Shown here piece by piece: positions 36,876-61,036 of a stretch of 64,000 nt of DNA. Both the position numbers and the translations under genes were made by a program. Below the pieces are notes generated by a model. It was given only the letters and a program-made list of their open reading frames with translations, did no database searches and was not told the origin of the DNA. Origin of the DNA: Subtercola boreus (GTDB lineage Bacteria; Actinomycetota; Actinomycetes; Actinomycetales; Microbacteriaceae); the NCBI RefSeq assembly GCF_003399625.1, contig NZ_NBXA01000001.1:62001-126000 (forward strand). The letters run 5' to 3'. Positions within the stretch are counted from its first letter, which is position 1. Every line of letters begins with the position of its first letter.

Positions 36876-37355
36876 TCAGGGGCGCGCGAGGGCGGCCGAG
36901 GACTGGATGTCGCGGAGCTCGCCCCAGAGGGTGGTGGCCTGCTCGCCCGTGGCCGTTGCCGTGATCTGCACGAGGTCGGTGACGGGTCCGTTCTCGATGA
37001 CGGCGATGCGCACGCCCTGCATGAGGGTGCCGACGCGGGCATCCGTGTAGCTGAACTCGATGCGGAAGCCCTCGCCTCCGAGCACGGGGAGGGTGTCACG
37101 GCCGAGCTCGACGACACCCTCGATCGATGTGACCTGCGCAGTGACCTCCGCGGTGGCCTGTTCGAGGGTGTAGCCGGCTCCGAACCGCGAGACGGCGACG
37201 ATCACATTCGGACGGAATTCGCCCGACGGCGCGGCGCGTCCGGCGGCGATGACCGCCCCTGCCGCGCCGAATGAGGCCCAGTCGTCGGGCAGCTCGAGGC
37301 TGATCGACGGGTAGGCGGGGGCGGAATCGCTGGGGAAGACGAGGGTGGATGTCAC
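36876..37355 (-). CDS. LpqN/DUF1795-like small protein at the end of the type VII-like locus
   Basis: 159 residues from GTG 37355 (MTSTLVFPSD). The pattern ISLELPDDWAS, PNVIVAVSRF, LEQATAEVTAQV, GGEGFRIEFSY and DLVQITATATGEQ resembles the LpqN/PsbP-like fold often found near ESX loci, but no lipobox or signal peptide is present, so it is probably cytoplasmic. It could be a chaperone or an immunity partner for the WXG100-fusion protein encoded 63 bp upstream. The family assignment is by eye and moderate. Confidence 0.7.
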   Translation of the reverse strand: MTSTLVFPSDSAPAYPSISLELPDDWASFGAAGAVIAAGRAAPSGEFRPNVIVAVSRFGAGYTLEQATAEVTAQVTSIEGVVELGRDTLPVLGGEGFRIEFSYTDARVGTLMQGVRIAVIENGPVTDLVQITATATGEQATTLWGELRDIQSSAALARP

Positions 37356-37418
37356 GGTGAGACCTTTCTTGCGGGTGGAGGGGAGGGAATGCGAGCAGGG
37401 TGCCGGCGAAACCACCGG

Positions 37419-38546
37419 CTAGAAGCCGAAGATGTCGCCCACGTTGTCCACGAGGTCCTTCGGGCTGAAGGTGAGCTCCTGCGAGAAGCCACCACCGATG
37501 CCGAAGGTGACGCCGGCGTCCCAGCCGAGCTGGACCTTGTCCCAGGTCACGTCGGCGTCGAGGTTGGCGTGTGCGCCGATGCCGGTGCTGACTTCGTAGC
37601 CCACCTTCTCGCTGATCCCACCGACGGTGATCGTGCCGTCTGCGCCGACTTTCGCGCCGGCGAACACTTCGCCGCCCGCGTTGACTCCCGCGCCCTGCGG
37701 TCCGATGGTTCCGCCGGCGTTTCCGTCGACCGCCGCGCCGCCGAGGGCGTTGATGTTGCCGCCGAGGCTGCCGAAGTCGTTCAGCTTCACGTCTCCCGTG
37801 GCGTTGAACTCCTCGCCGACCATTCCGCTGGCGTCGGACTTCGCGTAGTACTGGCCGTCTTCCGTGACGCCGGCGTGGGCCCCGGCGTCGCCCTTCACGC
37901 CGTCGAACCGGTCGACGCTGCCGCTGCCGACGATGTCCCCGGCACGGAAGGTGCCGTGCGCTTCACCGCCGACACCCCATCCCCAGCCCGCCGTCGCACT
38001 GTGGTCGGTGGCACCGTTCGGGCCGTAGGTGGTCTCTGCGTTTGCGTGGCCCGTGCCGTTCTCGACGTAGAGCGAACCGCCGCCGGCAGCGCCGTCGCCC
38101 TTGAGGGGCCCGGTGGTTCCCCACGAGATCTTGTCAGGGGTGATGCGGATGCCCCCGGGCAGTGTGGCGGAGGGAGTGCCCGATCCGGGGCCGGAGCCCG
38201 GCGCTGAACCCGATCCGGAGCCGGTGCCGGAGCCGCCGCCCGCCCCGCCCGCCCCGCCCGCCCCACCCACCCCGTCTGTCGAGGCCGCGTTCTGTTCATC
38301 GGCGTTCCGCAACAGGTCGGCGCTGCCGGCCGAGAGCGCGCGGATCGCGGACTTCAGGCTCGCGGTGTGCGAACCGTTCCAATCGCTTCGGAAGCCCTGG
38401 GCATCCGGACCCTGCCAGGCGTGCGCGGCGTTGACGTTCGTCGTCAGGGTCGACGTCAGGCCCGCCAGGCGGGTCGCAGCCGTATCGAACTGCTGTGCAA
38501 GGGTGCGGAGGGATGCGACATCCGCTCCGTAGAAACCACCGGCCAT
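37419..38546 (-). CDS. WXG100 domain fused to a Gly-rich C-terminal domain, putative type VII substrate
   Basis: 375 residues from ATG 38546 with AAGGAG 8 bases upstream. Residues 1-90 form a WXG100 helical hairpin with Trp44-Gln-Gly46 in AWQGPDAQGFRSDW. A Gly/Ser/Pro linker follows (about 92-125), then about 240 residues rich in Gly, Ala, Asp and Asn, with repeated patterns such as GAHAGV, GGEVFAGAKVG and GIGAHANLDADV, ending GGGFSQELTFSPKDLVDNVGDIFGF. I do not recognise the C-terminal domain; a beta-rich surface or pore-type effector is a guess. No YxxxD/E signal was seen. Confidence 0.82.
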   Translation of the reverse strand: MAGGFYGADVASLRTLAQQFDTAATRLAGLTSTLTTNVNAAHAWQGPDAQGFRSDWNGSHTASLKSAIRALSAGSADLLRNADEQNAASTDGVGGAGGAGGAGGGSGTGSGSGSAPGSGPGSGTPSATLPGGIRITPDKISWGTTGPLKGDGAAGGGSLYVENGTGHANAETTYGPNGATDHSATAGWGWGVGGEAHGTFRAGDIVGSGSVDRFDGVKGDAGAHAGVTEDGQYYAKSDASGMVGEEFNATGDVKLNDFGSLGGNINALGGAAVDGNAGGTIGPQGAGVNAGGEVFAGAKVGADGTITVGGISEKVGYEVSTGIGAHANLDADVTWDKVQLGWDAGVTFGIGGGFSQELTFSPKDLVDNVGDIFGF

Positions 38547-38586
38547 TCCAACCACTCCTTCTGTCTTTCGCCGAATCCGGAGACGA

Positions 38587-38621
38587 CGAAGGCGGGGACC
38601 AACGATCGGTCCCCGCCTTCG
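38587..38621 (-). terminator. Hairpin between the two WXG100 genes
   Basis: Perfect 14-bp stem CGAAGGCGGGGACC / GGTCCCCGCCTTCG with a 7-nt loop, 7 bp after the small WXG100 stop. No T-run follows, so it may be a partial terminator or an mRNA-stabilising element that raises expression of the upstream gene. Confidence 0.65.
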
Positions 38622-38628
38622 GTCGGTG

Positions 38629-38895
38629 CTAGGCGTTCGAGGTTGCTTCCTGGTCGGAGGCGTTCTTCGCCGACTTCTGCGACGCGTCTTCGAGAGCGGC
38701 GATGACCTGCTTCAGCGCGGCGGTGTGAGTGGTGTTCCACTCGCTGCGGAAACCTTCAGCATCCGGACCGGTCCACTGCACGTTCTGGAGCGCGCTGGTC
38801 AGAGTGGTGAGGATCTGCTGCACCTGCTGCGACTGCGTGTTGAGCTGCTTGCTGAGTGAGCGAACCTGCTCGACGTCGAGACCCCATACGGCCAT
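38629..38895 (-). CDS. WXG100-family (EsxA-like) secreted protein
   Basis: 88 residues, two predicted helices joined by Trp41-Thr-Gly43 in VQWTGPDAEGFRSEW. The length and motif position are standard for Esx proteins exported by type VII systems as helical-hairpin dimers. AAAGGAGAG precedes ATG 38895. The GFRS[DE]W segment is shared with the fusion protein encoded next, so the two may form a heterodimer. No C-terminal YxxxD/E motif is present. It lies downstream of the FtsK-type ATPase gene. Confidence 0.93.
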   Translation of the reverse strand: MAVWGLDVEQVRSLSKQLNTQSQQVQQILTTLTSALQNVQWTGPDAEGFRSEWNTTHTAALKQVIAALEDASQKSAKNASDQEATSNA

Positions 38896-39031
38896 TTTTC
38901 TCTCCTTTGTTGGCGCGAGACCGGATGCTCCGGTTCCCCCTGAATCCTGTGAGGTTTTCTCTCACGTTTCAACAGTATGGGCGAGTGGCCGATTGGTCGA
39001 TGGGGAGAACTCCCCATGCGCGGGATGCCGG

Positions 39032-39238: not shown

Positions 39239-39309
39239 GAGAACCTCCTCAGGATCAGTTTCAACGCTAGCCCGCCCGGTGAGCGAAGTCCACTGTGATG
39301 GTCGGGACC

Positions 39310-42300
39310 TCAGGCGTTCGCGAGGGCGATCTGCACCTTCGTGACGCGGCCCTGATGCACGAGGAAGCCGCGGCCCGGCGGGAAGTCGGTGCGCTTGAAG
39401 CGCCCGAGGGACGTGCCGAGCAGGGAGTCCCCGTCGAGTTCCCCGGGCACCAGCAGCAGGCCGCGTTTGGCGGTCTTGAAGGGGCCGGCGAGGGTCCAGG
39501 CGCCCGACCAGGTGGAGGACTCGCTCTCGCCGATGACGAAGACGTCGTCGCGGAGGGCCCGCTTGACGAGGCGGTCGACGTCGGCCTCGAGGGGGGATCC
39601 GTTCAGCTCGCCGATGTTCTCGAAGACCAGCACGAAGTCGGCGGCCCCGAGGGTTCCCGCGTCGAGCTGGGCGGAGACGTCATCGGCGAAGGCCGAGAGC
39701 TGGGCCGGGTCGGAGATCGAGAGTGCCCAGAACGGCAGCTTCGAGAGGGTGGTGGGGCGCGGTGACACGTGAACGAGCCGCACGGCGGGGCGGGCCCGAT
39801 GGATCGCCGTGGCGATGGTCGCGAGGGCGTTCGACCGGCCGCTGCCCGTCGACCCCGCGACCAGGAATCCGCCGCGCTGGGCGACTCCGAACGGGGCGAG
39901 ATCCTCGTCGCGGAGGCCGAGGGAGGGGTGAGCGGATGCGCCGGGGCCGGCGAGCACGGGCAGCTCCGAGAGCGACACCGCGTCGGCGAGGCGGCCGACC
40001 GGGATGGCGGGTGCGACGCCCTGGCGGCGCATCGAGTCGGCGAGCCGCGCGATCTCGCGTGCCTGGATGGCGATGTTGGAGTCTCCGCCGAGAACGGCGA
40101 TCTGCACTTCGTTGCCGGCCATCAGGCCGCGGCCGGGAGGTGAGACGGCAGAGAGGGCATCCTTCGGCGCTCCGACGAGGGAGTAGTCGTCGGGGTTGGC
40201 CATGCGCAGCACGATGCGGCGCTGGATGGTGGAGCCGAGCGAGGCGGGCACGGCGTTCGGGCGGTCGCCGGCGACGACGATGTGCACGCCGACCTGGCGG
40301 CCGTCGGTGGCGATCTGCGAGAAGACGGTGAACCACGCGGAGTGGCCGCCGAACTCGTACTGCTCGCGGAACGCTCCGATGCCGTCGACGAGCACGAGGA
40401 TGCGCGGCTCGGCAGCCGCTCCGGGCTCTGACGCCATGGCCCGGTACTCCCCGATCGAGCCGGCCCGAACCGCCGCGTACCGGATGGACCGGTCATCCAC
40501 CAGGTCGCGGAGCATGCGGAGCAGTCGGATGACACGTTCCTGGTCGTCGCCCGCGATGATGGCGCCGACGTGCGGCAGTTCTTCCAGCATGGCGAGCCCG
40601 CTGGAGCCGAAGTCGAGGCCGTAGACGTGCACGGGGCCACCGCGCGGGGTGACGGCTGCAGCGACAGCGATGCTTCTGAGGGTGGCGCTCTTGCCGGAGC
40701 CGCCGGTGCCGTAGACGGCCATGTTGCCGTCGCGGTCGGGCTCGTAGAAGACGGTCGGCTGGGCCTGGTTCTCGGGCTCGTCGATCACGCCGACCAACAG
40801 GCGTTCGTCGGTGCGCGGGTTCGGCAGGAGCGAGAAGTCGTAGACCGGTGCGAGTTCGTCGAGCCAGGGCTTTCGCGGCTGGGGGATGCGCGCGAGGGCC
40901 GAGGCGGCAGTGATCGACGTGACGAGGCGGGCGATGTCGTTCGGCCCCTGGTCGGTGAGGGGGGCGGCGTCTTCGGGCGCGGGGGCCTCCCACGCGACAC
41001 CGGATCCGAAGTTCATCTCGACGATGTCGATGCGGGGCACAGGGGGCTCGTCGGTGGTCCAGCCGCCGGCGTAGCCCGTCTGGAAGGCGGCGATGCGGCC
41101 GGGCCCGGTCTTGGCGGCACCCCGGCCCGGGATGGACTGGTCGAAGTATGCAGCGCTCGGGTTGCCGAGGATGTCGCTGGAGTCGTCGGCGTCCGCCATC
41201 CGCAGGGCGATCCGGAGGTTGGTGTTGGCGCGCAGGTTGTCCTTGATGACGCCGGCCGGGCGTTGCGTGGCGAGGATGAGGTGAAGTCCGAGCGAGCGAC
41301 CCCGCTGCGCGACATCCACGACGCCGTCGACGAACTCGGGCACCTCGTTGACGAGGGCGGCGAACTCGTCGACCACGATCAGGAGGCTCGGCGGGGCATC
41401 CGGGTCGCCGGTCTTCTCGAGCGAGGCGAGATCCTTGGCCTTCTTGCTGTTGAGGAGGTGCTCGCGGTAGCGGAGCTCAGCCCGGAGCGACGTGAGCGCG
41501 CGGCGCACGAGGTGCGGTGAGAGGTCGGTGACGAGCCCGACGGTGTGCGGCAGTCCCACGCAGTCGGCGAAGGCCGCGCCGCCCTTGTAGTCGACGAAGA
41601 GGAAGGTCGCGCGGTCGGGGGAGTGCGCGGCGGCCATGCCGAGCACCCAGGACTGCAGGAATTCGCTCTTGCCGGCGCCCGTCGTTCCGCCGACGAGGGC
41701 GTGCGGGCCCTGGCTGCGGATGTCCAGGTAGAACGGTTCGGTACCGGTGTGCCCCACCAACGCACGCAGATTGCCCTCTTTCGAGCGGCGGATGTGCGGG
41801 GAGCCGTCACGGCGGCTGATCGAGTTGTTCTCGCGCCACCGGTCGAGCACGGCATCCGGAGCCTCGGCGAGCTCGGTGCCCGCGAGGGCGAGGTACGAGA
41901 CCGACTGGGGGAGGTCGGAGGCGTCGTCGATGGGCGCGCCGACGTCGACGACGGGGGCGAGCTGCTTGGCGAAGCGGTGGGCGAGAGCTCCGTCGACGAC
42001 CTCGCAGACGACAGGGAAGGTGTTCTCTCCGAGCCTCACCTGTCCGGCGGTGGCACCCTCCGGCGTCTGTTCAATGCTGACGAAGCTCCGGCAGGCGGCG
42101 GGCAGGCTGCCGATCGAGGGGGCCGCCCAGACGATGTGGATGTTCGCATCCGCGCCGCGCTCGACGAGGCGGGTGAGGCGGCCGCGGTCGACGGGCGCGT
42201 CGTCTTCGATGACGAGGATGACCGCCGGCACGAGGGGCGGAACCTGTTCGTCCTTTTTCGCGGGCCCGCCCGCCGTGGCGCCGGCCGACCGGCTGGAACC

Positions 42301-43887
42301 GATCGCGACGCCGCTGACGGAGCCACCGGCCGGGCCGCCGGTGTCGACGGGCCCGCGGAGTGAGACGGCGTTGCGGGTGCGCCTGGCGACGAGTTCTTCG
42401 AGCCGTGCGAGCAGGGCGAGGCCGCTACCGGCGTTGTCGGTGAGGTGGTCGCCGCTCAGCGGACTGTGCGGCGACGAGGTGTGCGGCAGCCACTGCAGCC
42501 ACTCCCAAGTGGCGCGGGAGGTCGGCGAGACAAGGGCGCAGACGACGAGTTCGGCGGGCGAGTGGAGGCCTGCCAGCTGGGCGACGAGCGACCGTGCCAC
42601 TCCGCCCCGAAGCTCGGCGGGGCCGGCGACGCCGAGGGCGCCCGCGCTTCGCAGCTCGACGACGACCGGCACGTCGTCGATCACCGCGAACTGTTCGGCG
42701 ACCTCCTCGAGCTGCGCCCAGTATTCGGGCAGGGAGTCGTTGTTCGAGGGCAGGCCGACCCGGTCGCGGCTGAAGGCGCGGCCGATGCCGAGCCGCACGG
42801 TGAGGAAGGCGTCGTGTTCGGGACGGTGGGTCCAGAGCGGTGACGAGAGGCGGAGGGCGGCCTCGACGGTGTCGGCGACGGCCGGTGCCTCGGTGAGGCG
42901 GACCGCCCGCTGCACGCGCTGGCGGTCGTGCAACCGGCCTACATAGGTGTTCAGCGACTGGGTGAACGCTCTGATCGCGTCCCGCAGTTGCCGCCGGGTG
43001 GTGATGCGATGGTCGACGTAGGTGCCGACCATCAGCAGGGGACTGAGGGCGACGAAGACGACACTCAGGAGCGACTGCGTGACGGCGAACAGCACCGCGC
43101 CCATGATGAGCGGTGCAACGAGGGCAATGATCGGGAAGCGCTGCGCCTGCGGCCGGGTGGGCGGTGCAGGCGCCGGGTATTCGGCGCCGGGGTAGCGCGC
43201 GACGACCCGCGGCGAACGGTTGTACTCGATGACCGGGGTGGAGGGCGCGGCTCCGCCGAGTCGTTGCAGCGGGATGACGCTCACTGCCGTGTCGCCGAGC
43301 ACGACGACGTCTGCGGGGCCGAGCACGGTGCGGGCGACCTGCTCACCGCCCATCAACAGCCCGTTCGCGGAGTTCAGGTCGATGATCTCGACGTTCTCAC
43401 CGATGTTGATGCGCGCATGGCGTTTGGAGACGAGAGTGTCGCTGAGGCGCACATCGATGCCGCGCTCGCGGCCGACGTGGCTGGATCCGAACGGCAGTTC
43501 GAACTCGGCACCCGCGTCGGGACCGCTCAGAACGCGCAGGGTCGCTGCCGCAGGTCCCCGGCCCTGGCCGCTCGAGAAATTGTCGCTGAACGGGCGGAGC
43601 TCGACGACGGAGCCGGAACGGAACCCCGATTCGAGGAGGTTCGACTCGGGGTCGAGCAGGCGCGGCTCACCGGTGGGGCCGGTGACCTGGAGCGTGAGGC
43701 GGCGGGGCCGGAGGGGAGCGGATGTGGCGGCTCCGGTCACCGCAGCGGCTCCGGCTGCGCCGGCGTTCAGCGGATCTGCGGCGAACAGCGCATCCGCGAC
43801 GTTGCTCACCCGGGTGGTGGCGTCGGCGGTTACGGCGAGGTCGGCGGTGCTCCCACCGGGGCGCTGCAGGGTGATCTTGATTCGCAC
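39310..43887 (-). CDS. FHA-FtsK/SpoIIIE ATPase (EssC/EccC-like secretion motor)
   Basis: 1525 residues. Order: ubiquitin-like/first FHA-like N-terminal region (1-100), canonical FHA domain (117-207; GRERGIDVRL, SKRHARI, DLNSANGLL), two membrane helices (252-290), then three FtsK-type ATPase domains. The P-loops are GGTTGAGKS near 732, GTGGSGKS near 1060 and GSTGSGRS near 1346-1353, with Walker B LLIVVDEFAALV in the first. It is the motor of a type VII-like system; the N-terminal FHA plus fused ATPases matches Firmicutes EssC better than mycobacterial EccC. ATG start, 3 bp after the preceding stop. Confidence 0.93.
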   Translation of the reverse strand: MRIKITLQRPGGSTADLAVTADATTRVSNVADALFAADPLNAGAAGAAAVTGAATSAPLRPRRLTLQVTGPTGEPRLLDPESNLLESGFRSGSVVELRPFSDNFSSGQGRGPAAATLRVLSGPDAGAEFELPFGSSHVGRERGIDVRLSDTLVSKRHARINIGENVEIIDLNSANGLLMGGEQVARTVLGPADVVVLGDTAVSVIPLQRLGGAAPSTPVIEYNRSPRVVARYPGAEYPAPAPPTRPQAQRFPIIALVAPLIMGAVLFAVTQSLLSVVFVALSPLLMVGTYVDHRITTRRQLRDAIRAFTQSLNTYVGRLHDRQRVQRAVRLTEAPAVADTVEAALRLSSPLWTHRPEHDAFLTVRLGIGRAFSRDRVGLPSNNDSLPEYWAQLEEVAEQFAVIDDVPVVVELRSAGALGVAGPAELRGGVARSLVAQLAGLHSPAELVVCALVSPTSRATWEWLQWLPHTSSPHSPLSGDHLTDNAGSGLALLARLEELVARRTRNAVSLRGPVDTGGPAGGSVSGVAIGSSRSAGATAGGPAKKDEQVPPLVPAVILVIEDDAPVDRGRLTRLVERGADANIHIVWAAPSIGSLPAACRSFVSIEQTPEGATAGQVRLGENTFPVVCEVVDGALAHRFAKQLAPVVDVGAPIDDASDLPQSVSYLALAGTELAEAPDAVLDRWRENNSISRRDGSPHIRRSKEGNLRALVGHTGTEPFYLDIRSQGPHALVGGTTGAGKSEFLQSWVLGMAAAHSPDRATFLFVDYKGGAAFADCVGLPHTVGLVTDLSPHLVRRALTSLRAELRYREHLLNSKKAKDLASLEKTGDPDAPPSLLIVVDEFAALVNEVPEFVDGVVDVAQRGRSLGLHLILATQRPAGVIKDNLRANTNLRIALRMADADDSSDILGNPSAAYFDQSIPGRGAAKTGPGRIAAFQTGYAGGWTTDEPPVPRIDIVEMNFGSGVAWEAPAPEDAAPLTDQGPNDIARLVTSITAASALARIPQPRKPWLDELAPVYDFSLLPNPRTDERLLVGVIDEPENQAQPTVFYEPDRDGNMAVYGTGGSGKSATLRSIAVAAAVTPRGGPVHVYGLDFGSSGLAMLEELPHVGAIIAGDDQERVIRLLRMLRDLVDDRSIRYAAVRAGSIGEYRAMASEPGAAAEPRILVLVDGIGAFREQYEFGGHSAWFTVFSQIATDGRQVGVHIVVAGDRPNAVPASLGSTIQRRIVLRMANPDDYSLVGAPKDALSAVSPPGRGLMAGNEVQIAVLGGDSNIAIQAREIARLADSMRRQGVAPAIPVGRLADAVSLSELPVLAGPGASAHPSLGLRDEDLAPFGVAQRGGFLVAGSTGSGRSNALATIATAIHRARPAVRLVHVSPRPTTLSKLPFWALSISDPAQLSAFADDVSAQLDAGTLGAADFVLVFENIGELNGSPLEADVDRLVKRALRDDVFVIGESESSTWSGAWTLAGPFKTAKRGLLLVPGELDGDSLLGTSLGRFKRTDFPPGRGFLVHQGRVTKVQIALANA

Positions 43888-43890
43888 GGT

Positions 43891-44667
43891 CTACAGTCTC
43901 GCGTTCCGGTCGGTGGGGGTGGAGGATCCGGGTTCCTGCGGCTCGTCGAGAAGCGGAAGCTGGTCGCGCGTCACGATGCGGGAGAGCACGGCGTACTCGA
44001 CCAGCCGCGCCCGGCGGTTCGTGGCGAGGGCGCCGACCCCGCCACGCAATCCATCGACGCCCGAGCGGGCGAGCTTGTCGCACACGTTGTCGAGCTTGCG
44101 GTTGAACCGGCTGATCGCCCAGCCCAGCCGTTCGGCAGCCGCGGCCGACGAGGGAATCTCGCTGGTTCCCGATCCGTCGCGTTTCAGCATCGGTTCCGCC
44201 AGGGCCAGGATCAGCAGCCTCTGCGACGACGTGAACGCGATCGCACCGAAGGTGGTCGCGCCGTCACCGTCGGGCACGGTCGAGGTGTCGATGAACGGGG
44301 GGAGCGAGGTGTGCACGGCGAACTCGTAGCTGGTCGGCCCCGCGGTGAAGACCACGGTGGTGAGCCGGAAGACGATCGGCAGTCGCGCACCCGGGGCGAG
44401 CCACGCCTGCACGCCGCCGGCCGAGTCGGACATCGACGCCGACAGCCGCGAACCCACGTTGTTCAGCCACCACAGGCCGTCGCTGAAGGTGATCTGCAGG
44501 AAGTGGCGGTGCAGGTACTGGTTGTCGTCGATGTCGAGGTCGGCGTCCCGCCCCACGGTGAACGCGGTGTCGGGGTCGAGGCGGTACCACTCGCCGCAGT
44601 ACTCGACCGAGGCCTGGTTGGTGCCGGTCGGTGGATTCGTGTCGGGTGCCCGGTCTGTGCCGGTCAC
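43891..44667 (-). CDS. Divergent FHA-domain protein with helical C-terminus
   Basis: 258 residues from GTG 44667, which overlaps the kinase stop (GTGA); GTG 44676 is an alternative. Residues about 20-110 resemble an FHA fold (FTVGRDADLDI, then LHRHFLQITFSDGLWWLNNVGS), but the usual SxxH and NG motifs are altered, so phosphothreonine binding may be lost. The C-terminal part (FTSSQRLLILALAEPMLKR ... AERLGWAISRFNRKLDNVCDKLA) looks like a winged-helix or helical bundle. It is encoded between the kinase and the secretion ATPase and may be an adaptor. Confidence 0.75.
   Translation of the reverse strand: MTGTDRAPDTNPPTGTNQASVEYCGEWYRLDPDTAFTVGRDADLDIDDNQYLHRHFLQITFSDGLWWLNNVGSRLSASMSDSAGGVQAWLAPGARLPIVFRLTTVVFTAGPTSYEFAVHTSLPPFIDTSTVPDGDGATTFGAIAFTSSQRLLILALAEPMLKRDGSGTSEIPSSAAAAERLGWAISRFNRKLDNVCDKLARSGVDGLRGGVGALATNRRARLVEYAVLSRIVTRDQLPLLDEPQEPGSSTPTDRNARL

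Positions 44668-46294: not shown

Positions 46295-46298
<4 letters not shown>
44664..46298 (-). CDS. Transmembrane Ser/Thr protein kinase of the type VII-like locus
   Basis: 544 residues, GTG start overlapping the preceding stop (GTGA). Kinase domain 1-285 with LGSGGFADVFLY, Lys45, HRDIKPAN (Asp139) and DFG (157-159). An acidic and Pro-rich cytoplasmic linker with several Thr (about 290-400) could be phosphorylated. A membrane helix (about 408-432) precedes a 110-residue extracellular domain with two Cys, Ig/Fn3-like rather than PASTA. It corresponds in context to the bifidobacterial Pkb2 kinase. Likely targets are the four FHA proteins and the ATPase of this operon. Confidence 0.93.
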
Positions 46299-47800
<1,502 letters not shown>

Positions 47801-52416: not shown

Positions 52417-53702
52417 CAGGCGTTCACCCGCCGCAGAGCGGGGGCGAGTTCGGTGAGGTCACCGATCGTGAGAAGGGTGAGCTCCCCGATCATCCGCCGG
52501 CCGACCGGTGCGCCCGGTTGGCAGCGCACAGCGATGACCCTGACACCGAAGGGGAGTTGCACGGAGGCTTTCCGCATCTCGGTGGGCGTGACGGACGCAC
52601 CGAAGAGCAGCACCGCGACCGAGGCGTTCGGCACCGCTTCGCCCGCCGTCTTCGCGAGGTGCACGATCGATTCCCGGCTCTGCCGCTGGTCGATGCCGGA
52701 GAGATCGTCGAGCAGGCGCCGCCCGGTCTCGGTGTGGAGGGTGCGCGACTGCACCATCACCGTGACGTCCCGCTCCTCGATGAGGGCCTGGATGCCGAGC
52801 GATCCGCACGACGAGACGGCGAGTTCGAACTCGTCGGGGTCGCCGTAGTCGGCCAGGCTGGTCGAGAGGGCCAGCGCGAGGTGGGAGCGCCGGGTCTCCT
52901 CGAACTGGCGCACCATCAGGGTCCCTGTGCGGGCACTGGTCTTCCAGTGGATGTTCCGCCGGTCATCCCCGGCCACATACTCCCGGAGCGCGTGGAACGA
53001 GACGTCGTCGTTCGAGAGGTCTTTGGTGGTCTGGCCCTCGAGATCGCGGATGAATCCGGCCGACGATCCCTCCAGGCGTACGGTTCGCGGATGCACGTAG
53101 AGCTCGATCGCGTCGGTCCACCGGATCTCCCGCCGCAGCAGCCCCAGCGGGTCGCCGCGCACCGACTTCACCGGGCCGACGTTCAGCACGGCACGGCGCG
53201 CGGTCGGGATGCCGAAGAGGTCGTCGTGCGAGGCCCCCGGCACGAGACGCGGCACGTGGAATGAGGCTAGTCCGGCTCCCACGGGCAGTTCGATGCGCGA
53301 CGGCAGAAGCGCACGCGCGGAGTCGTTGCCGATCACGATGCTGCCGACGGCGCGAGTGCCGACGACGACACGGTTCGCCGCGAGGTTCAGTTCCACGGTG
53401 TAGGCCGACCGGCCGACCACGAAGACCACGGAGAGCGCGAGCACGGCGAAACTGGCGAACGCGATCACGAGGAGTTCCTGCCAGCCGAACGCCAGCCCCG
53501 CGACGAGTGCGGCCACTCCGGCGGCCAGCACGACCCAGCCGAACGGCGAGACGACCGACACGATGGGCGATGCGAGGCGTGCGATGGCCCGCCAGGCTGG
53601 TCGAGCGGCGGCCGCCGCCGGCCGGCCGATCCGCTCGCCCACGACCCGGCCGGCGACGCGCGCAGCAGCCCGTGAGCGGTCACGTGCTGTGCTCGGGGTC
53701 AT
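52416..53702 (-). CDS. DUF58 (VWA-like) protein, MoxR partner
   Basis: 428 residues with two membrane helices near 50-95 (FGWVVLAAGVAALVAGLAF, LLVIAFASFAVLALSVVFVV) and the DUF58 signature LREYVAGDDRRNIHWKTSARTGTLMVRQFEE at about 243-273. DUF58 proteins are thought to work with MoxR ATPases in assembling or activating membrane or secreted complexes. Followed by the transglutaminase-like gene with an ATGA overlap and preceded by moxR, the standard trio. Confidence 0.93.
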   Translation of the reverse strand: MTPSTARDRSRAAARVAGRVVGERIGRPAAAAARPAWRAIARLASPIVSVVSPFGWVVLAAGVAALVAGLAFGWQELLVIAFASFAVLALSVVFVVGRSAYTVELNLAANRVVVGTRAVGSIVIGNDSARALLPSRIELPVGAGLASFHVPRLVPGASHDDLFGIPTARRAVLNVGPVKSVRGDPLGLLRREIRWTDAIELYVHPRTVRLEGSSAGFIRDLEGQTTKDLSNDDVSFHALREYVAGDDRRNIHWKTSARTGTLMVRQFEETRRSHLALALSTSLADYGDPDEFELAVSSCGSLGIQALIEERDVTVMVQSRTLHTETGRRLLDDLSGIDQRQSRESIVHLAKTAGEAVPNASVAVLLFGASVTPTEMRKASVQLPFGVRVIAVRCQPGAPVGRRMIGELTLLTIGDLTELAPALRRVNA

Positions 53703-53757: not shown

Positions 53758-54741
53758 CTAGACCGCGACAGTCGCGGGCTGCCGCGCCTGTGGTGCCGCC
53801 ACGTCGGCCAGCACTCGCGCGAGCACCTGGGCGGCGGTCGTGCCGGCGAACTCGGCCTCCGGGTCGAGCACGAAGCGGTGCGTCCACACGTGCGGGGCCA
53901 GCTCCTTGATGTCGTCGGGCAGCACGAAGTGGCGGCCCTGGGCCGCAGCCCAGACCTTCGACGCCCTGATCAGGGCCATCGCCCCGCGCACAGACACACC
54001 CACGCGGCTCTCGGGCGCATCCCGGGTGGCCTCGGCGAGCTGCGCCGTGTACCTCAGGATCGCGCTGTCGACATGCACCGTCGCGGCGAGGTCGGCCATG
54101 TCGGCGACAGCGCTCGTCGTGATGATCGGCGTCAGCGCCGCCGAGGAATCGCGGATCGACGCGCCGGCCAGGATCAGCTCGGCCGACGCGAGGTCGGGGT
54201 AGCCGATCGACGTCTTGATCAGGAATCGGTCGAGCTGCGCTTCGGGCAGGCGGTAGGTGCCGGCCTGTTCGATCGGGTTCTGCGTGGCGATCACGAGGAA
54301 CGGGCGGCCCACGCTGTGCGCCACACCGTCTACAGTGACCCGCGACTCCTCCATCACCTCGAGCAGGGCCGACTGCGTCTTCGGCGATGCACGGTTGATC
54401 TCGTCGGCCAGAACGATCGACGCGAACACGGGCCCTCTGTGGAACTCGAACGCATGGCTGTTCTGGTCGTAGATCGTCACGCCCGTGACATCCGAGGGCA
54501 GCAGGTCGGGGGTGAACTGGATGCGCTGGTGCGTGCCCTGCACCGTCGCGGCGATCGCGCGGGCGAGCGACGTCTTGCCGGTGCCGGGAGCGTCCTCCAG
54601 CAGCACGTGCCCCTCGGCGATCATGGCCATGATCGTGAGCCGGATGACGCCCTGCTTGCCGAGAACGGCCTGCCCGACGTTGCCGACGAGCCGGTCGAAC
54701 GTTCCGGCGAACCAGGTCGCCTGTTCGGAGGTCATGCTCAC
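53758..54741 (-). CDS. MoxR-type AAA+ ATPase
   Basis: 327 residues. Walker A LLEDAPGTGKTSLARAIA at about 46-63, Walker B VLADEINRASPKTQSALLEVMEE, sensor 1 FLVIATQNPIEQAGTYRLPEAQLDRFLIK and a C-terminal lid. The family acts as chaperones that remodel partner proteins, usually with VWA/DUF58 partners. GTG 54741 or ATG 54735 may be the start. It lies 22 bp from the stop of the giant Fn3 gene and 55 bp before DUF58. Confidence 0.95.
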   Translation of the reverse strand: MSMTSEQATWFAGTFDRLVGNVGQAVLGKQGVIRLTIMAMIAEGHVLLEDAPGTGKTSLARAIAATVQGTHQRIQFTPDLLPSDVTGVTIYDQNSHAFEFHRGPVFASIVLADEINRASPKTQSALLEVMEESRVTVDGVAHSVGRPFLVIATQNPIEQAGTYRLPEAQLDRFLIKTSIGYPDLASAELILAGASIRDSSAALTPIITTSAVADMADLAATVHVDSAILRYTAQLAEATRDAPESRVGVSVRGAMALIRASKVWAAAQGRHFVLPDDIKELAPHVWTHRFVLDPEAEFAGTTAAQVLARVLADVAAPQARQPATVAV

Positions 54742-54763
54742 AGTGTTCTTCTCCTAACCCGGG

Positions 54764-57700
54764 TTACCAGGTGATGTGGTTGGACTCGAAGGATCCGCTC
54801 GGGCCGTTGATGGTCGCGTAGACCGACGATCCGGTGAATCCGAAGTAGGCGTTGTTGGGGATGGTCAGATTTCCGCTCGAGCCGACGTTGACGGTCTTCG
54901 TCAGCCATGGCGACACGCAGTTGCCACCGCTGGCGCAGTTGCTGAAGTAGGTCAGCGTGTACGCCCCGGGTTTCGCGTCGGTGATGCGCAGCTCGACGTA
55001 GGCGCATCCGGACGTCGCGCACTGCGCAGTGCGCACCGGAGCGCCCTTGGCGACATTCACCGCGGTGAGGATCGGTTCGGCACCGCTCGCTGCAGCCGCC
55101 GAGGCGGTTCCGCTGACAGCTCCCGTCGCGTCGACGGTGCGGGCGTCGATCGAGTGGTTCTGGCTGTACCCGTCGCCGACCTCGCGGCTCCCGCCGACGG
55201 TGCCGACGTTCTCCCAGCCGCCACCGTCGATGCTGATCTCGATGTGGAAGTCCTGGCCGTTCCGGCTGGGAGCCCCCCAGCTCACTGTGACGCTCTTGGC
55301 GTTGCCGCTCGCGCTCGCGGTCGGGTTGCCGGGCGCGCCGTAGGGGCTGACGGTGTTGGATGCCCCGCTGGCCGCTCCCTGGTAGGACTCGCCGTCGAGC
55401 TGGGTGACCGCTCGGACCTTCACGCTGTAGGAGCCGTTGTTCGGCACTCCGCTCCGGATGACCTTGTCCCCGGGCATCCCGATCCAGCCGCCGCCATTGA
55501 CGCTGTACTGGTAGGCGAGTTCGCTCTGCCGGGCACCCTTGCCGTCGGCGGCCCCATACGAGACGGTGACCGTGTTGTCGCCGGCGCTGGCTTGCACATT
55601 CGAGGGTGCGCCCGGGGCCACGAAGGCGCGGCGCGGCGCGGATTCGCCCGAGCTCTCACTCGTGCCCGCCTTGTTCCTGGCGGTCAGCGCGAAAGTGTAG
55701 TTGGTCTCCGAGTAGTCCACCGGGATGGCCTGGGACGTCTCGCCCGCGCCGGGCGTGAGGGTGCGGATGACCGAGCCCCCGCGAATCACCTGGAGCGAGT
55801 AGCCCTTGATCGGGTCTCCGTTGGCCGCCGGGGCCTTCCAGTTGACCTGCAACTGGGCCTGGTCGCCGACCGGGTCGAGACGGGTCACGGTGGGTGCGGC
55901 GGGAGCGTCGGGCTTTCCGGCCGGGATCTCGGCAGCAGAGTACGGGCTGAAGTCGCTCGGGCTCGGGGCCCGGTTCACGGCCTGCACCCGCACCTCGTAG
56001 GGGGTGCCGTTGTCGAGCCCCTCCCATTTCACGGTGTTGCCGGTCACTCCGGTCTTCTGGATGGCGCCCTTCGCCGGCGCGGGCGAGATCTCCAGGTTGT
56101 AGGAGGTCACCGGCGAGCCGGTGGTGTTCGGGGTCACCCAGGTCACGGTGAGGCTCTTGTCTCCGAAGACGAGCGTCGGCGCGGCGGGGCGGTCGGGGCG
56201 GGCATCCGGCCGGGCCACCGCAGACGCGGGAGACGGATCGGAGACGCCGACCGAGTTCGTGGCCGTGACCGTGAAGGTGTACTCCACATTGTTGGTGAGG
56301 CCGTTCAGAGTGCACGTCGTCGAGGCGCACTGCTTGCTGTACCCCTGCGGGCTCGACACGGTGTAGCCCGTGATCGGAGCGCCGTTGTCGCTCGGCGGTG
56401 TCCAGGAGAGAACGACGGTCTTGTCCTGGATGGAGGTCACCGAGGGCGTCGTCACGTTGTCGGGCCGGCCCTGAACGGTGAGCAGGATGCGTCCGTCGGC
56501 CTCGCGGGTCGGGTCGTTCGTGGCATCCGAGATGCGATAGCTCACGACCATCCGGCCCACGAAGTCCGGACCCGGTGTCACATCCACTCGGCTTCCGTTG
56601 ACGCGCGCCGCACCGTCGCCGGTCTCGACGGTGGCGCCGAGGATCTTCAGTGGGGTGTCAGGGAACGGGTTGGTGTCATTCGCGAGCACGTCGACCGTTC
56701 GGGTCTTGCCCTGGTCGGCATTGCCGATCTCATCGTCGCCGGCGATCGGTTTCGGCTTCGTCGTCGTCAGCACGGTGACGGTCACGACCCCGGTGCCCGG
56801 TTCACTCTGGCCGTCGTCGGCCGAGATCTGGAGAGTCGAAGGTCCCTTCGTCGCCGAAGGACTCGCGGTCACGGTGAGGGTGTTACCGTCGATCTTCGCG
56901 TCGAGTCCGGAGGCCGGGTCGTTCGTTATGCGGTAGACGAGCCTGTCGAGGTCGCCCTTGTCCGAATCGCGCGCGAGCGTGCGGAGGTTCAGGGTCTTCG
57001 GGCCGTCGTCGGGTGACACGTCGAGGCTGCCACCACTGAAGGTCGGCGAGTGGTTGATTGTCGACACCACGGTGATCGGGATGACCAGGGTGGCCTTGTG
57101 CCCCTCCGGATCGTCGGGCCCCGTGCCGTCGGTGACCTCGAAGTTCAGGGCGTCGGGCCCGAAGTAGTCGGCGTTCGACGTGTAGCTGAGGGTCGAGGCA
57201 TCCGTCACCAGCGAAGCGCCGTTCGCGTGCGACGCGCTCACCTTCCCGGCCTCGGTGATGCGCACCGTCTTGCCGGGGGCGACGAGCACGTAGTCGCTGA
57301 GCGCCACGCTCACGGTCTCACCGCTGTTCACCGTGATCGGCTTCGTGCCGGGCTTCAGAGTCGGCGCCTCGGTGTCGGTTCCGGGGGCGTAGACGAATGC
57401 CGATGCGGTCAGGCCGTCGACGTCGGTCACCGTGTAGGTGATGATCTGTGCCGCGGGCTGCAGGATGACCGTGAGCTGGCCATCCGCGGTGACGCTCGCA
57501 TTCGGGTCGTTCACCGATACCTTCAGATCGTCGACCGTGCCGTCGGGGTCGTCGTCGTTCTCCCGCACCGGAACCGTCGTCGACGCCTTGCCCATGACGT
57601 CGGCGACACCGATGATGTCGTCGCGGGCGATCGGTGCCACGAGTGGGGCATTCGGATCGACACTCACCAGCAGGGCGCCGACCGCCGTGGCCCCGTACTG

Positions 57701-60700
57701 GTCGACGACCGTGTACTGCACGGCGTACTGGCCGGGCGTCGAGGGGGCGTTCACGACCACGCGGCCGCGCGTGATCTCGGCTGTCATCCCGTCGGGCAGC
57801 TGCAGCCCGTTGTCGCGGAGCGCGATCGGGTCGCCGTCGGGATCAGAGTCGTTCGCCAGCACATCCACAGCGACGCTCCGGCCCGGCCTCACGCTCACGG
57901 CATCCGGCACCGCGTACGGGTTCTGGTTCGCTGCCGAGCTCGGCACGATCCCCACCTGCACTGTCGCCGTCGCCTCTGCGCCGAGGCGGTCGCGCACGGA
58001 ATAGGCGAACGTGTCGGTGCCGGTCGACACCGGGTAGGCCTCGTACTCGAGCCACGATTCGCCGACGTTCACGATGCGGCCCTTGCTCGGAGCGCTCGCC
58101 TGGCCGACGAGCTGCACGGAGTCGCCGTCGGGGTCGATGCCGTCCAGCGTGATGGGAATGCGCACCGTCGTACCCTGGAGCGCCCGAACGGTCACATCGC
58201 GGGGGCGGGGCGGCGAGTTCGCCCCGGCGTCGGCGCCCACGATCTGGATGGTCACGTAGCCGGCGTCGCGCTGGCCCTGGCTGTCGACGACCTCGTAGGT
58301 CGCGTACACGGTCTTCGCGGTGGGTCCGGCCTTGAAGCGCAGCGTGTCCTGCGCCACGAACATGTCGCCGTCGGCCGGGTCGATCAGCGGCTCGACGAGC
58401 TTCGGCGCGAGCGTGATCGTGTCACCGTTGGGGCTGTAGTCGTTGGCGAGAACCGGGATGGTCGCCACATCCCCCGCCCGCACGGTCACGCTGTCATCGA
58501 CCGCGACCGGTGGAAGCAGCTTCGCCGGGGCCGGCACGGGGATGATGTAGACCTCGCCGAGCGCCGACTTCGAACCGTTCGTGACGGTGTAGTGGATGGT
58601 CGTGGGGATCGTGATGCCGGGAACATCGGTGACGCGGAGCGTCTCGTGCTCCAGCACCTCCACGCTCACCCCGGAATCGGCGGGGTTGTCGATCGACTGC
58701 ACGGCGAGGATGCCGCCGGCCGGGTCGAAGTCGTTGCCGAGTACGTTGACCAGCACGCTGTGGCCCTTGGTGAGCAGGGCGACGTCGCGCACGGCGATGG
58801 GCGCGGCATCCGTCGCCACGTCGGCGAGAACATCCACTCGCACCAGGTTCGTCGCCGACTTCGGACCGTTCGTGACGGCGTAGCGCACGTAGTAGGTGCC
58901 GGGCGTCGCCGAGACGAAGCTGAAGGTGCCGGTGGTGTAGTCGGGAACGACCGTCGCGCCGGCGACCTCGTTCACCTTGGCGAGCCGGAGCTGCGTGCCG
59001 CTCGGGCTGAGGTCGTTCAGGAGCGGAGACGCGGTGACCTGCTGGTTCGGGCGGGTGATGTAGTGGTCGGCGTTCGTGATGGGGGGCAGAGTGCCCGCGG
59101 CGCGCATCTCGAAATGGATCGTGCCCTCGGTCTGGGTTCCGGCCTGGCCGTCGGAGACCGTGACCTTCACATCCTTCCGCCCCGGTTCCGCATCGAGCGC
59201 GGTGAACGTGATCTGGCCGTCGGCGCGGAACTGCACCTGGTTGGCGCCGTCGGCCGTTGCATTCGTCACGAAGATGTCGTCGCCGTCGGGATCGATCCAG
59301 TCGGGCAGCACGTTGTACGACACGGTGGAGCCCTGCTCGACGGGCACGGTCGCGATGCGTTTCTCGACAGGCGCGCTGTTCGTGCCGGTCGCGCTCACCG
59401 TGAGGGTGACGGAGGCCGTGTCCTGCCCGCCCCGGCCGTCGTCGGCCGTGTACGTGAAGGTGTTGCCGCTCGTCGCGCCGGCCGGCACCGAGATCTGCAG
59501 GGCGGCCCCGTTCAGAATGGGTTGCACCGAGCCGAGCTTCGGCTGTGCGCCGGTGAGGCTCGCCGTCAGCACGTCACCGTCGGGGTCCGAGTCGTTGTCG
59601 AGCACCGGCAGGATGGTCGTGCGGCCCGCTCGCACGCCGAACTTGTCGTTCGCGGCGATCGGCGGGTTGTTCTTCTCAGTGCGGTTGGGCAGCACCTGCT
59701 GCAGCACGTCTTCGGGGGTGTCGTCGTTGTTGTCCTTCTGGGTCTGGTCGGCGGGGGGAACCACGTCGTCCCAGTTCTCGACCTTCTTCATGTCCTGGTT
59801 GACCAGCCAGACGGCCCCGCTGGTGAGGTCGTTCAGCACGACGACATCGCGATTGACGCGGAAGAGCAGGTCGGCGTTGTCGCCCAGTCCGTCGATCGCC
59901 CGGGCGACGTCGTTCGCGCTGCCCTCGCAGTCGCGGAGGTAGGTGGAGGCGCCCGACCAGGCCGCGTAGGCGCAGCCGCCGAGGGCGACAGGCGCGGTGG
60001 GCCGGCCGACGGCGCCGGTGCTGCTGGGGGGCGCGTCGACCGTGGTGGCCTCGCCTCCGCCGAGGGGCTGTTCGATGAGCGCTGTCGGGGTGGCGATCAG
60101 CACGGTGGCCGACCCGGGCCCGTTCTGCTGCAGGATTCCACCCTTGGTGCTGTCGAGTGTGACGGTCTTGCCGCCCGGCAGGAAGACGGTGCCGTTCACG
60201 CTGTCGAACACGACCGCATCGGTGCCGACGGTGGCGAGGGTGAGCTTCGCGTCGTCGGCGACAGCGGGCAGAGCGCTGGTGGTGATGTCGGGGCTCTTCG
60301 AGGTGGTGCCGGTGCGGCTGTCGACGGTGGGGGCGGCGCTCGTGGAGGGTGTGGGCGTGGCGGCGCTCCCGGCTGCGGGGGTGGCCGGGGCGGTCGCTGC
60401 CGGGGTGGCCGTGTCGGTGGCGGGTGCGTCTGAACTCTGCTCATCCGGAACCGGCGCGGCCTGGGCATCCGCCGGGATCGTCACCAGCGTGCGGTCGGTC
60501 AGCGAGAGGCCATGGATGCCGCCACTGCTGTCGACGGTGGCTGAGGCTCCCGACCCCAAGCGGTAGAGCGGCGCCTGCGGGGAAGGCAGGAAGCTGGCCA
60601 GCGACTCGGGCGACGTGGCCCAGAGCATCCCGCTCGCCGGGTCGAGCACCGACAGCGTGTCGGCCCCGAGCGAGACCTGCGCGTCGGCGGGAACGGCGAC

Positions 60701-61036
60701 CGGGTTGCCGACGGAGACCGTGGCGGGGTCGACCGTCTGCATCGTCGAGGAGGCCGGGTCGACGGCGATGACCGTGTCGCCGTCCTGCAGGATGCCGAAA
60801 TTGCCGCTCGTCATGCGGAGGCCGCTGTCGAGCACCTGGGAGGGGTAGTTGAGGTGGCCGAGCAGGAGCCCGCTCGGCTTCGACACCCAGACGCCGCCGT
60901 CGTTCAGCTGCACGTTCGCCGTCGAGACGCCCTGGTAGAGGATCGCCATCGTGGTCACCGCAAGTGACACGACAGAGACGGTCGCCACAGAGGCAAACGT
61001 CGCCTTGTGGCGCCGAATGGCCTCGAAGAGCCTCAC
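54764..61036 (-). CDS. Giant membrane-anchored cadherin-like/Fn3 repeat surface protein
   Basis: 2090 residues from GTG 61036 (MRLFEAIRRHKATFAS); an ATG 45 bases upstream is an alternative. One N-terminal membrane helix (about 12-35) is followed by a 430-residue region with propeller-like repeats (GDTVIAVDPASSTMQTVDP). About eleven ~90-residue Ig/cadherin-like repeats carry motifs such as VLDNDSDPDGD and VLANDYSPNGD, suggesting Ca2+ sites, then about five Fn3 domains and a Cys-containing C-terminal domain. No LPXTG. Head of the operon; corresponds to the Fn3 member of the PFNA cluster. Confidence 0.92.
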   Translation of the reverse strand: MRLFEAIRRHKATFASVATVSVVSLAVTTMAILYQGVSTANVQLNDGGVWVSKPSGLLLGHLNYPSQVLDSGLRMTSGNFGILQDGDTVIAVDPASSTMQTVDPATVSVGNPVAVPADAQVSLGADTLSVLDPASGMLWATSPESLASFLPSPQAPLYRLGSGASATVDSSGGIHGLSLTDRTLVTIPADAQAAPVPDEQSSDAPATDTATPAATAPATPAAGSAATPTPSTSAAPTVDSRTGTTSKSPDITTSALPAVADDAKLTLATVGTDAVVFDSVNGTVFLPGGKTVTLDSTKGGILQQNGPGSATVLIATPTALIEQPLGGGEATTVDAPPSSTGAVGRPTAPVALGGCAYAAWSGASTYLRDCEGSANDVARAIDGLGDNADLLFRVNRDVVVLNDLTSGAVWLVNQDMKKVENWDDVVPPADQTQKDNNDDTPEDVLQQVLPNRTEKNNPPIAANDKFGVRAGRTTILPVLDNDSDPDGDVLTASLTGAQPKLGSVQPILNGAALQISVPAGATSGNTFTYTADDGRGGQDTASVTLTVSATGTNSAPVEKRIATVPVEQGSTVSYNVLPDWIDPDGDDIFVTNATADGANQVQFRADGQITFTALDAEPGRKDVKVTVSDGQAGTQTEGTIHFEMRAAGTLPPITNADHYITRPNQQVTASPLLNDLSPSGTQLRLAKVNEVAGATVVPDYTTGTFSFVSATPGTYYVRYAVTNGPKSATNLVRVDVLADVATDAAPIAVRDVALLTKGHSVLVNVLGNDFDPAGGILAVQSIDNPADSGVSVEVLEHETLRVTDVPGITIPTTIHYTVTNGSKSALGEVYIIPVPAPAKLLPPVAVDDSVTVRAGDVATIPVLANDYSPNGDTITLAPKLVEPLIDPADGDMFVAQDTLRFKAGPTAKTVYATYEVVDSQGQRDAGYVTIQIVGADAGANSPPRPRDVTVRALQGTTVRIPITLDGIDPDGDSVQLVGQASAPSKGRIVNVGESWLEYEAYPVSTGTDTFAYSVRDRLGAEATATVQVGIVPSSAANQNPYAVPDAVSVRPGRSVAVDVLANDSDPDGDPIALRDNGLQLPDGMTAEITRGRVVVNAPSTPGQYAVQYTVVDQYGATAVGALLVSVDPNAPLVAPIARDDIIGVADVMGKASTTVPVRENDDDPDGTVDDLKVSVNDPNASVTADGQLTVILQPAAQIITYTVTDVDGLTASAFVYAPGTDTEAPTLKPGTKPITVNSGETVSVALSDYVLVAPGKTVRITEAGKVSASHANGASLVTDASTLSYTSNADYFGPDALNFEVTDGTGPDDPEGHKATLVIPITVVSTINHSPTFSGGSLDVSPDDGPKTLNLRTLARDSDKGDLDRLVYRITNDPASGLDAKIDGNTLTVTASPSATKGPSTLQISADDGQSEPGTGVVTVTVLTTTKPKPIAGDDEIGNADQGKTRTVDVLANDTNPFPDTPLKILGATVETGDGAARVNGSRVDVTPGPDFVGRMVVSYRISDATNDPTREADGRILLTVQGRPDNVTTPSVTSIQDKTVVLSWTPPSDNGAPITGYTVSSPQGYSKQCASTTCTLNGLTNNVEYTFTVTATNSVGVSDPSPASAVARPDARPDRPAAPTLVFGDKSLTVTWVTPNTTGSPVTSYNLEISPAPAKGAIQKTGVTGNTVKWEGLDNGTPYEVRVQAVNRAPSPSDFSPYSAAEIPAGKPDAPAAPTVTRLDPVGDQAQLQVNWKAPAANGDPIKGYSLQVIRGGSVIRTLTPGAGETSQAIPVDYSETNYTFALTARNKAGTSESSGESAPRRAFVAPGAPSNVQASAGDNTVTVSYGAADGKGARQSELAYQYSVNGGGWIGMPGDKVIRSGVPNNGSYSVKVRAVTQLDGESYQGAASGASNTVSPYGAPGNPTASASGNAKSVTVSWGAPSRNGQDFHIEISIDGGGWENVGTVGGSREVGDGYSQNHSIDARTVDATGAVSGTASAAAASGAEPILTAVNVAKGAPVRTAQCATSGCAYVELRITDAKPGAYTLTYFSNCASGGNCVSPWLTKTVNVGSSGNLTIPNNAYFGFTGSSVYATINGPSGSFESNHITW

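Follow-up and report, generated by a model that had tools for sequence, protein, structure and literature searches.

We analyzed a 64,000-nucleotide stretch of the Subtercola boreus genome (assembly GCF_003399625.1, contig NZ_NBXA01000001.1, positions 62,001 to 126,000; hereafter the window), in which a cluster of fourteen genes joins an EssC-like membrane ATPase and proteins with WXG domains to a block of genes resembling the PFNA operon of bifidobacteria (hereafter the block). This arrangement recurs in many related actinobacteria of soil and appears to represent a previously undescribed type VII secretion branch, and we consider it somewhat probable that its ATPase belongs to a distinct, FHA-type lineage exporting WXG effectors, with the PFNA-like block as regulatory and envelope module. 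What the comparisons show is the gene content of the cluster, its conserved linkage, the separate ATPase lineage, conserved catalytic residues in the kinase, MoxR and phosphatase, the loss of a cysteine from the transglutaminase-fold (TG) protein, and the shared distribution of the ATPase and one WXG subfamily in the genomes examined. Protein names such as RDD-FHA, FHA2 and FHA-w are explained in Table 1, and the MoxR, DUF58 and TG genes are together called the trio.

An FHA-type ATPase lineage and its neighbors

The window ATPase was searched against 119 genomes sampled evenly across the order to which S. boreus belongs, and the 32 genomes with a best match above 900 bits are referred to as carriers. 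Gene order was read with profiles of the window proteins in 100 stretches around these 32 and other matches, with more stretches added later. Of the 32 carriers, 24, the window included, had at least two block genes (RDD-FHA not counted) adjoining the ATPase, and the full trio lay beside it in 20 of those 24, plus one weak case (L023); in three of the 24 (G062, G097, G039) the neighborhood is incomplete or part of the block lies on another contig. No block was found in two carriers, G116 and G067, the latter having only a PP2C gene nearby. FHA-w was matched in 46 of the 119 genomes, 43 of them above 200 bits, and was concentrated in the carriers at that level (29 of 32 vs 14 of 87 other genomes; Fisher p = 6e-14, uncorrected for kinship). 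TG-like proteins were matched in 103 of the 119 genomes, with 51 reaching our threshold for the block type (at least 150 bits), 27 of these among the carriers (27 of 32 vs 24 of 87; Fisher p = 4e-8, likewise uncorrected). The weaker TG proteins of two carriers (G089, G090) were confirmed by profile and would raise the former count to 29 of 32, while 24 of 87 is a lower bound because no weak TG proteins were added there, and at least one such genome (G028, L110) carries the block as well. Among 246 genomes sampled across the class, 19 contained FHA-w, and 13 of these belong to the order.

Named genomes were scanned as well, and the best 80 loci of at least 591 stretches (at least 576 confirmed) were compared. 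These contained FHA-w (78), the kinase and FHA2 (77 each), PP2C (74), TG (72), RDD-FHA (67), DUF58 (47), a WXG gene (44) and MoxR (4), the flank taken being about 10 kb, where the MoxR gene of the window just lies, and several loci stopping at contig ends. Since the gene order recurs in most of these 80 loci, the cluster is not a product of chance. The genera represented were Herbiconiux, Subtercola, Cryobacterium, Agreia, Rathayibacter, Microbacterium, Cellulosimicrobium, Promicromonospora, Oerskovia, Luteimicrobium, Antribacter, Krasilnikoviella, Brachybacterium, Arthrobacter, Pseudarthrobacter, Paenarthrobacter and Sinomonas, together with some metagenome bins. An Arthrobacter-like copy of the cluster, with an ATPase 54% identical to that of the window, was also observed on a contig labelled Sporosarcina beigongshangi REN13 (L172, NZ_JADHDY010000023.1); Sporosarcina is a Bacillota genus, and contamination or mislabelling is likely.

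Two other arrangements were seen. Locus L111 (G054:C2:915000-934900) carries a large propeller/Ig-like frame, MoxR, DUF58, a TG-fold protein and a zinc-ribbon-like protein, followed by a 1003-residue FtsK-like protein with no match to the FHA model. Three loci (L087, L095 and L097, in genomes G002, G019 and G052) hold FHA-w, PP2C and one or two other block genes with no window-type ATPase near, and could be either what remains of a reduced signalling set or an older core.

The phylogeny comprised 58 ATPases and 1185 columns and was rooted on EccC-like proteins adjoining EccD, the latter identified by Pfam in L088 and by size, transmembrane (TM) count and N-terminal sequence in L216 and L218-L220. 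Fifteen rows of an earlier 64-row set are omitted (L012, L014, L015, L017, L018, L019, L030, L031, L043, L045, L063, L068, L069, L070, L111), and two pairs of rows (L049/L192, L065/L214) represent one gene each. All 24 kept rows of the window lineage formed one clade with support 1.0. A sister lineage of four rows, from three genomes of family f14, joins it with support 0.999, and the ATPases of three genomes of family f4 fall in another, well-supported clade. The deepest split within the window lineage separates L038 and L039 from the rest, with block genes on both sides of it, and in all three sister genomes examined a large open frame, MoxR, DUF58 and TG come after the ATPase. Because the block occurs on both sides of this first split and the trio follows the sister ATPase, the link between ATPase and block appears to be ancient.

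The window ATPase is 98% identical, over the best segment, to that of S. boreus P27479 (L126). It scored 526 bits against the NCBIfam model of EssC, 357 against EccCa and 306 against EccCb, all below the equivalog cut-offs, and its PDB profile matches include EccC and YukB; the general hallmark of type VII secretion, a membrane ATPase of the EssC/EccC FtsK/SpoIIIE type, is therefore present. The phosphothreonine-site residues of the FHA domain are mostly retained (R in 113, S in 111, H in 114 and N in 107 of 125 rows, a count that takes in other ATPase lineages too). Tentatively, and on modest and mixed evidence, the protein may begin with a ubiquitin-like domain at about residues 1-100. YukD matched 4 of 34 ATPase N-termini in Pfam (best E 0.0059) and UBX matched one (E 0.0029), with ubiquitin, TmoB and ZFAND1-UBL turning up too; unrelated families matched at similar values (Ribosomal_L2_C, E 0.0062; DUF3756, E 0.009), and the N-terminus of the window ATPase itself had no Pfam match. 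The best PDB profile match was a redesigned ubiquitin (E 0.0051, the next 0.21), and a profile-profile comparison with EccD N-termini was weak (E 0.013, probability 3%; WXG control E 0.67). The N-terminal model also reaches the sister ATPases (E 1.5e-7 to 1.6e-4), and four EccC-like ATPases beside EccD, three of which may be mis-started, gave no significant match to the N-terminal or FHA models of the window lineage.

WXG proteins, envelope proteins and cluster layout

Two WXG100 proteins had been proposed in an earlier note on this DNA. Both score below their Pfam cut-offs, the first at 26.0 bits against 27.3 for WXG100, and the 375-residue protein, matched by WXG100_2 only, at 21.5 against 27; the second was nevertheless recovered by a subfamily profile (E 2.8e-23), which matches the WXG100 protein, itself a row of that profile, at E 4e-40. 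A WXG100 protein is thus encoded with the ATPase, below curated cut-offs yet with motif and subfamily conserved, and the W-x-G-P-D-A motif is kept in the sister lineage too. The profile, whose rows include members from the window and the sister lineage, was applied to 40 chosen genomes and found the subfamily in 13 of 25 with a window-type ATPase, in all three with a sister ATPase (G063 and G091 by construction, being rows of the profile) and in none of 12 with neither. Many of the matches are N-termini of proteins of about 300-560 residues encoded away from the ATPase, one of them in the S. boreus genome itself (L222). Twenty such WXG-headed proteins were examined in sequence and ten scanned with Pfam, which gave one calpain-family protease domain and one DUF6973 domain over cut-off; by eye, several carry a lipase-like GHSQG motif. 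The WXG domain heads variable, effector-like proteins, the pattern expected of exported effectors, and the 375-residue product, built in the same way, is a candidate effector.

When the TG-fold protein was aligned to the TgpA-like structure 6g49, Asp525, just before the aligned stretch, sat at the place of the catalytic cysteine; paralogues show Cys in that column. Across 124 rows (120 distinct genes) the column held D 95, E 16, S 5, A 4, G 3 and Q 1, and Cys in none, whereas 14 of 15 TgpA-like paralogues, from 15 of the same genomes, have Cys. The fifteenth (L199, Ser) belongs to a sister type VII locus, and all three sister TG proteins have Ser; the cysteine is also missing from the TG rows of family f4, where the gene order is PFNA-like. 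On this count an active transglutaminase was rejected, and the TG-like protein of the block is predicted to be a pseudo-enzyme. The His column (H in 81 of 124) and Asp column (D in 85 of 124) are partly misaligned and were not used.

Catalytic residues are conserved in the other enzymes of the cluster: the kinase K, D and D in 116 of 116 rows, the acidic residues of PP2C in 116-118 of 119, and the Walker A K and Walker B D/E of MoxR in 52 of 52. Inspection by eye suggests that the extracellular domain of the kinase is Fn3-like and the C-terminal domain of FHA-w winged-helix-like. At its N-terminus the surface protein has a domain that matches a designed Pizza propeller (E 1.7e-6), a family derived from the PknD sensor, which itself matched at E 0.074. 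Its Big_9 domains are Ig/cadherin-like, and its sole TM window starts at residue 14, with no C-terminal TM segment.

All fourteen genes that the earlier note placed on the minus strand at 36876-61036 are open and in frame (Table 1), and Pfam bears out its FHA-FtsK ATPase, kinase, PP2C, MoxR, DUF58 and transglutaminase-like proteins, and finds Big_9 and fn3 stretches in its 2090-residue surface protein. Three of its four FHA-type proteins (ATPase, RDD-FHA and FHA2) have a Pfam FHA domain, and the fourth (43891-44676) has no Pfam match. Its description of the genes as mostly coupled by ATGA/GTGA was overstated: such 4-base overlaps occur at 3 of 13 junctions, with one 1-base and one 13-base overlap besides. 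At nine of the 13 junctions, those of the tightly packed first ten genes, neighbors overlap or lie no more than 55 bases apart; the final four junctions leave gaps of 71, 136, 82 and 63 bases.

Table 1. Genes of the S. boreus cluster, in order of transcription (window positions)
Feature	Coordinates	Strand	Evidence
Surface protein, 2090 residues; N-terminal TM, propeller, 11 Big_9 and 3 fn3 stretches	54764..61036	-	Pfam
MoxR AAA+ ATPase	53758..54741	-	Pfam AAA_3 and lid
DUF58 protein, N-terminal TM region	52416..53702	-	Pfam, TM windows
TgpA-like membrane protein with TG fold	50014..52416	-	Pfam TgpA_N and Transglut_core
RDD-FHA: zinc ribbon, RDD membrane domain, FHA	48665..50017	-	Pfam
PP2C phosphatase	47802..48668	-	Pfam
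FHA2, FHA at C-terminus	46295..47800	-	Pfam
Ser/Thr kinase, one TM, extracellular C-terminal domain	44664..46298	-	Pfam Pkinase; TM windows
FHA-w: FHA-like protein, strongly conserved C-terminal domain	43891..44676	-	Sequence; no Pfam match
EssC-like ATPase: FHA (118-202), TM, FtsK/SpoIIIE domains	39310..43887	-	Pfam FHA and FtsK_SpoIIIE
Single-TM protein, 68 residues	39032..39238	-	TM window
WXG100 protein, W-x-G-P-D-A motif	38629..38895	-	Motif and subfamily profile
375-residue protein: N-terminal WXG domain, Gly-rich linker, own C-terminus	37419..38546	-	Subfamily profile
LpqN-like protein	36876..37355	-	Pfam LpqN; start picked by comparison with relatives

Across 36500-44000 no promoter or terminator stood above chance, and one terminator-like site was located upstream of the cluster. 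A MATE-family transporter gene (62175-63779, Pfam) lies upstream on the same strand. GC content climbs across the window (1-64000) from about 0.60 in the first 8 kb to 0.72 in the last 4 kb.

A proposed export machine and its rivals

The mechanism that we infer concerns secretion, gating by phosphorylation, the identity of the channel, and the role of MoxR and DUF58. The membrane ATPase would export the WXG100 protein along with effectors headed by the same WXG domain. The kinase would sense an extracellular cue and phosphorylate cytoplasmic parts, and the ATPase, the RDD protein and both remaining FHA proteins would use their FHA domains to read these marks and switch assembly on, with PP2C resetting the switch. 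MoxR and DUF58 would form a chaperone pair seating the inactive TG-fold membrane protein and the propeller-Ig-Fn3 giant in the envelope, and the giant may span the wall as a conduit or a target-recognition arm. The chaperone role is taken from what the portions consulted of PMC7159879 say of MoxR pairs, and the phosphorylation of the MoxR of the bifidobacterial PFNA operon by Pkb2, given in a passage of PMC8430577, counts in favor of this reading. A more specific version, an undescribed type VII subtype in which an envelope complex serviced by an AAA+ ATPase builds the route through the wall, with MoxR-DUF58 loading a dead TG scaffold and the giant under kinase/FHA/PP2C gating, is possible rather than probable. 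The prediction is that the 'transglutaminase' of the block is a scaffold instead of an enzyme, and many common soil actinobacteria gain a candidate system for exporting effectors under a dedicated phospho-switch.

Several results weigh against export by a machine of this kind. The score of the window ATPase against EssC, 526 bits, compares with an equivalog cut-off of 778. Eight of the ten WXG-headed proteins scanned had no Pfam domain over cut-off after the WXG domain. Among the 80 named loci, 36, mostly Arthrobacter relatives, had no WXG gene that we could find beside the ATPase; in three Arthrobacter-type genomes of this kind that were tested, a WXG100 gene was located elsewhere in all three. 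The block lies elsewhere in the genome in six of the 32 carriers (G031, G047, G054, G069, G083, G105), and the WXG profile found no match in 12 of the 25 chosen genomes with a window-type ATPase, which include the subclade of these split loci, where L030 has its own WXG100. The block also occurs in at least 24 of the 87 genomes that have no window-type ATPase, and can therefore work alone.

Such separation is what would be expected if the operon housed two machines, the PFNA-like block by itself building and sensing a surface adhesin or a wall-stress structure and the type VII genes being co-expressed yet physically uncoupled. The genomes with the block alone include family f4, with its PFNA-like order, and FtsK and WXG are not mentioned in the portions consulted of the PFNA papers (PMC8430577, PMC6803598). 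We regard this explanation as rather doubtful. The six split loci, four of which remain in the 58-ATPase tree, belong to a single inner subclade together with L034, which stops at a contig end, so their separation looks derived; RDD-FHA adjoins the ATPase in all six, and in G069 FHA-w is also found about 6 kb off, on the other side of the ATPase. The trio moreover follows the sister ATPases in three genomes and precedes the FtsK-like protein of L111. In L088 it lies close to an EccC/EccD pair of the T7SSa type on the opposite strand, and in L056 some 2 kb from a different FHA-type ATPase, either of which may be chance. The 'one machine' of the earlier note accordingly stands in part, the ATPase/WXG100 and PFNA-like genes being joined widely and apparently anciently and the two sets being separable (6 of 32 apart, 2 of 32 with the block absent, at least 24 of 87 with the block alone); in the gene-neighborhood comparison it had suggested, occurrence of the two sets independently of each other in most genomes was not observed for the ATPase and was partly observed for the block. 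It is unlikely that the ATPase serves surface display, exporting or assembling the giant with the WXG proteins as mere chaperones or regulators. The two proteins do share a gene cluster, and the giant has a single, N-terminal TM window, but the Ig protein and the trio persist in genomes without a window-type ATPase, and the WXG domains head many variable proteins, as exported effectors would. Very unlikely, finally, is a plain T7SSd (Garrett et al. 2024, PMC11217815) with extra neighbors, although the kinds of part named in the portions consulted of that paper correspond: WXG100, FHA-ATPase, kinase, single-TM protein and large Ig-like protein. Three f4 genomes stand in for T7SSd here, with TsdC of O. 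uli itself outside the tree; L049 fits the T7SSd parts list (WXG100, kinase, a 56-residue protein, a 1798-residue Ig-like protein and ATPase), and L196 and L197, as far as seen, share only the ATPase with that description. The window and f4 ATPases are 29% identical and fall in separate well-supported clades, and the Ig proteins are not alignable (best BLASTP E 0.20), with TM windows at 31, 1750 and 1769 in the f4 protein, thus including a C-terminal one, vs 14 only in the window protein. The f4 kinase scores 94 bits on the window-family kinase model vs 573-698 for kinases beside a window-type ATPase (outliers being second copies in L022, at 537 and 543, and L033, cut by the stretch end, at 86), and the 68-residue single-TM protein was matched, with a single-sequence model, only in Subtercola boreus among the best 80 named loci. 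With f4 as stand-in, T7SSd membership was rejected on the ATPase tree (separate clade, 1.0) and the Ig protein.

Comparison with known systems

With T7SSa/ESX the cluster shares a WXG100 protein and an FtsK-type ATPase, and it differs in that no EccB or EccD was found in its own genome. The earlier note had seen no EccB, EccD, EccE or mycosin. For EccB and EccD this extends to the whole assembly, with no matches to either, EccD having been matched in control genomes only below cut-off; for EccE and mycosin it holds in the locus by Pfam, no genome-wide search having been made. EccB was matched in 17 of the 119 genomes of the order, two of which (G007 and G067) have a window-type ATPase. The likeness to T7SSb (EssC/YukB) lies in the FHA-FtsK ATPase, and the difference in its score below the EssC cut-off; EssA, EssB and EsaA had no Pfam match in the locus, again with no genome-wide search made. 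The LXG effectors of T7SSb have an N-terminal helical domain and then a variable C-terminal domain, as do the WXG-headed proteins here. EssB of T7SSb is a pseudokinase, whereas the kinase of the cluster keeps its catalytic residues.

The description of T7SSd in the portions consulted of PMC11217815 names five parts, and the cluster has parts of the same kinds, its FHA-bearing ATPase being likewise EssC-like. T7SSe, in the same portions, resembles the cluster further in having a PPM phosphatase and a stand-alone FHA protein. The cluster differs from both in its RDD-FHA protein and its trio; those portions make no mention of MoxR, DUF58 or transglutaminase. A further difference may be a ubiquitin-like part fused to the ATPase in the window lineage, and such a fusion in actinobacterial FHA-type systems could explain why T7SSd is reported to lack a ubiquitin-like subunit. 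The window ATPase lineage may stand unnamed in trees of the PMC11217815 supplement or of other papers. Among the matches listed for T7SSd terms in later literature, only this 2024 paper was relevant, and the locus was not described in the titles and abstract starts listed for DUF58/MoxR with WXG100/type VII or transglutaminase, or for Arthrobacter with type VII. We found no paper with both PFNA and type VII secretion, subscription papers and preprints being outside the scope of the search.

The MoxR-vWA ternary systems of PMC7159879 resemble the cluster in pairing a MoxR chaperone with a beta-propeller component; in the portions consulted they have vWA proteins where the cluster has DUF58, which like WXG does not occur there, and the propeller of the cluster is on the surface protein. 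A mycobacterial moxR operon resembles PFNA according to the portions consulted of a 2025 review (PMC12067865), in which ESX does not occur.

The cluster also corresponds in gene content to the PFNA operon, which the portions consulted of PMC8430577 and PMC6803598 describe with a kinase, an Fn3 surface protein, MoxR, DUF58, a transglutaminase-like protein, PP2C and FHA; by Pfam, the window cluster has the PFNA set of kinase, Fn3 protein, MoxR, DUF58 and transglutaminase-like gene. The kinase comes first in PFNA and lies downstream in the window cluster, and gene orders with the kinase ahead of the Ig gene were observed in L073-L082. The block of the window is in addition joined to ATPase and WXG genes, and its occurrence is not limited to bifidobacteria. 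The bifidobacterial TGM is called 'presumably a cysteine protease' in a passage of PMC8430577; it would instead be inactive if family f4 is Bifidobacteriaceae, as we presume. The cluster ties together two literatures, on PFNA and on type VII secretion. Were the more specific version with an AAA+-serviced envelope complex true, the PFNA 'immune-sensing' operon of bifidobacteria would be the same complex without the export motor.

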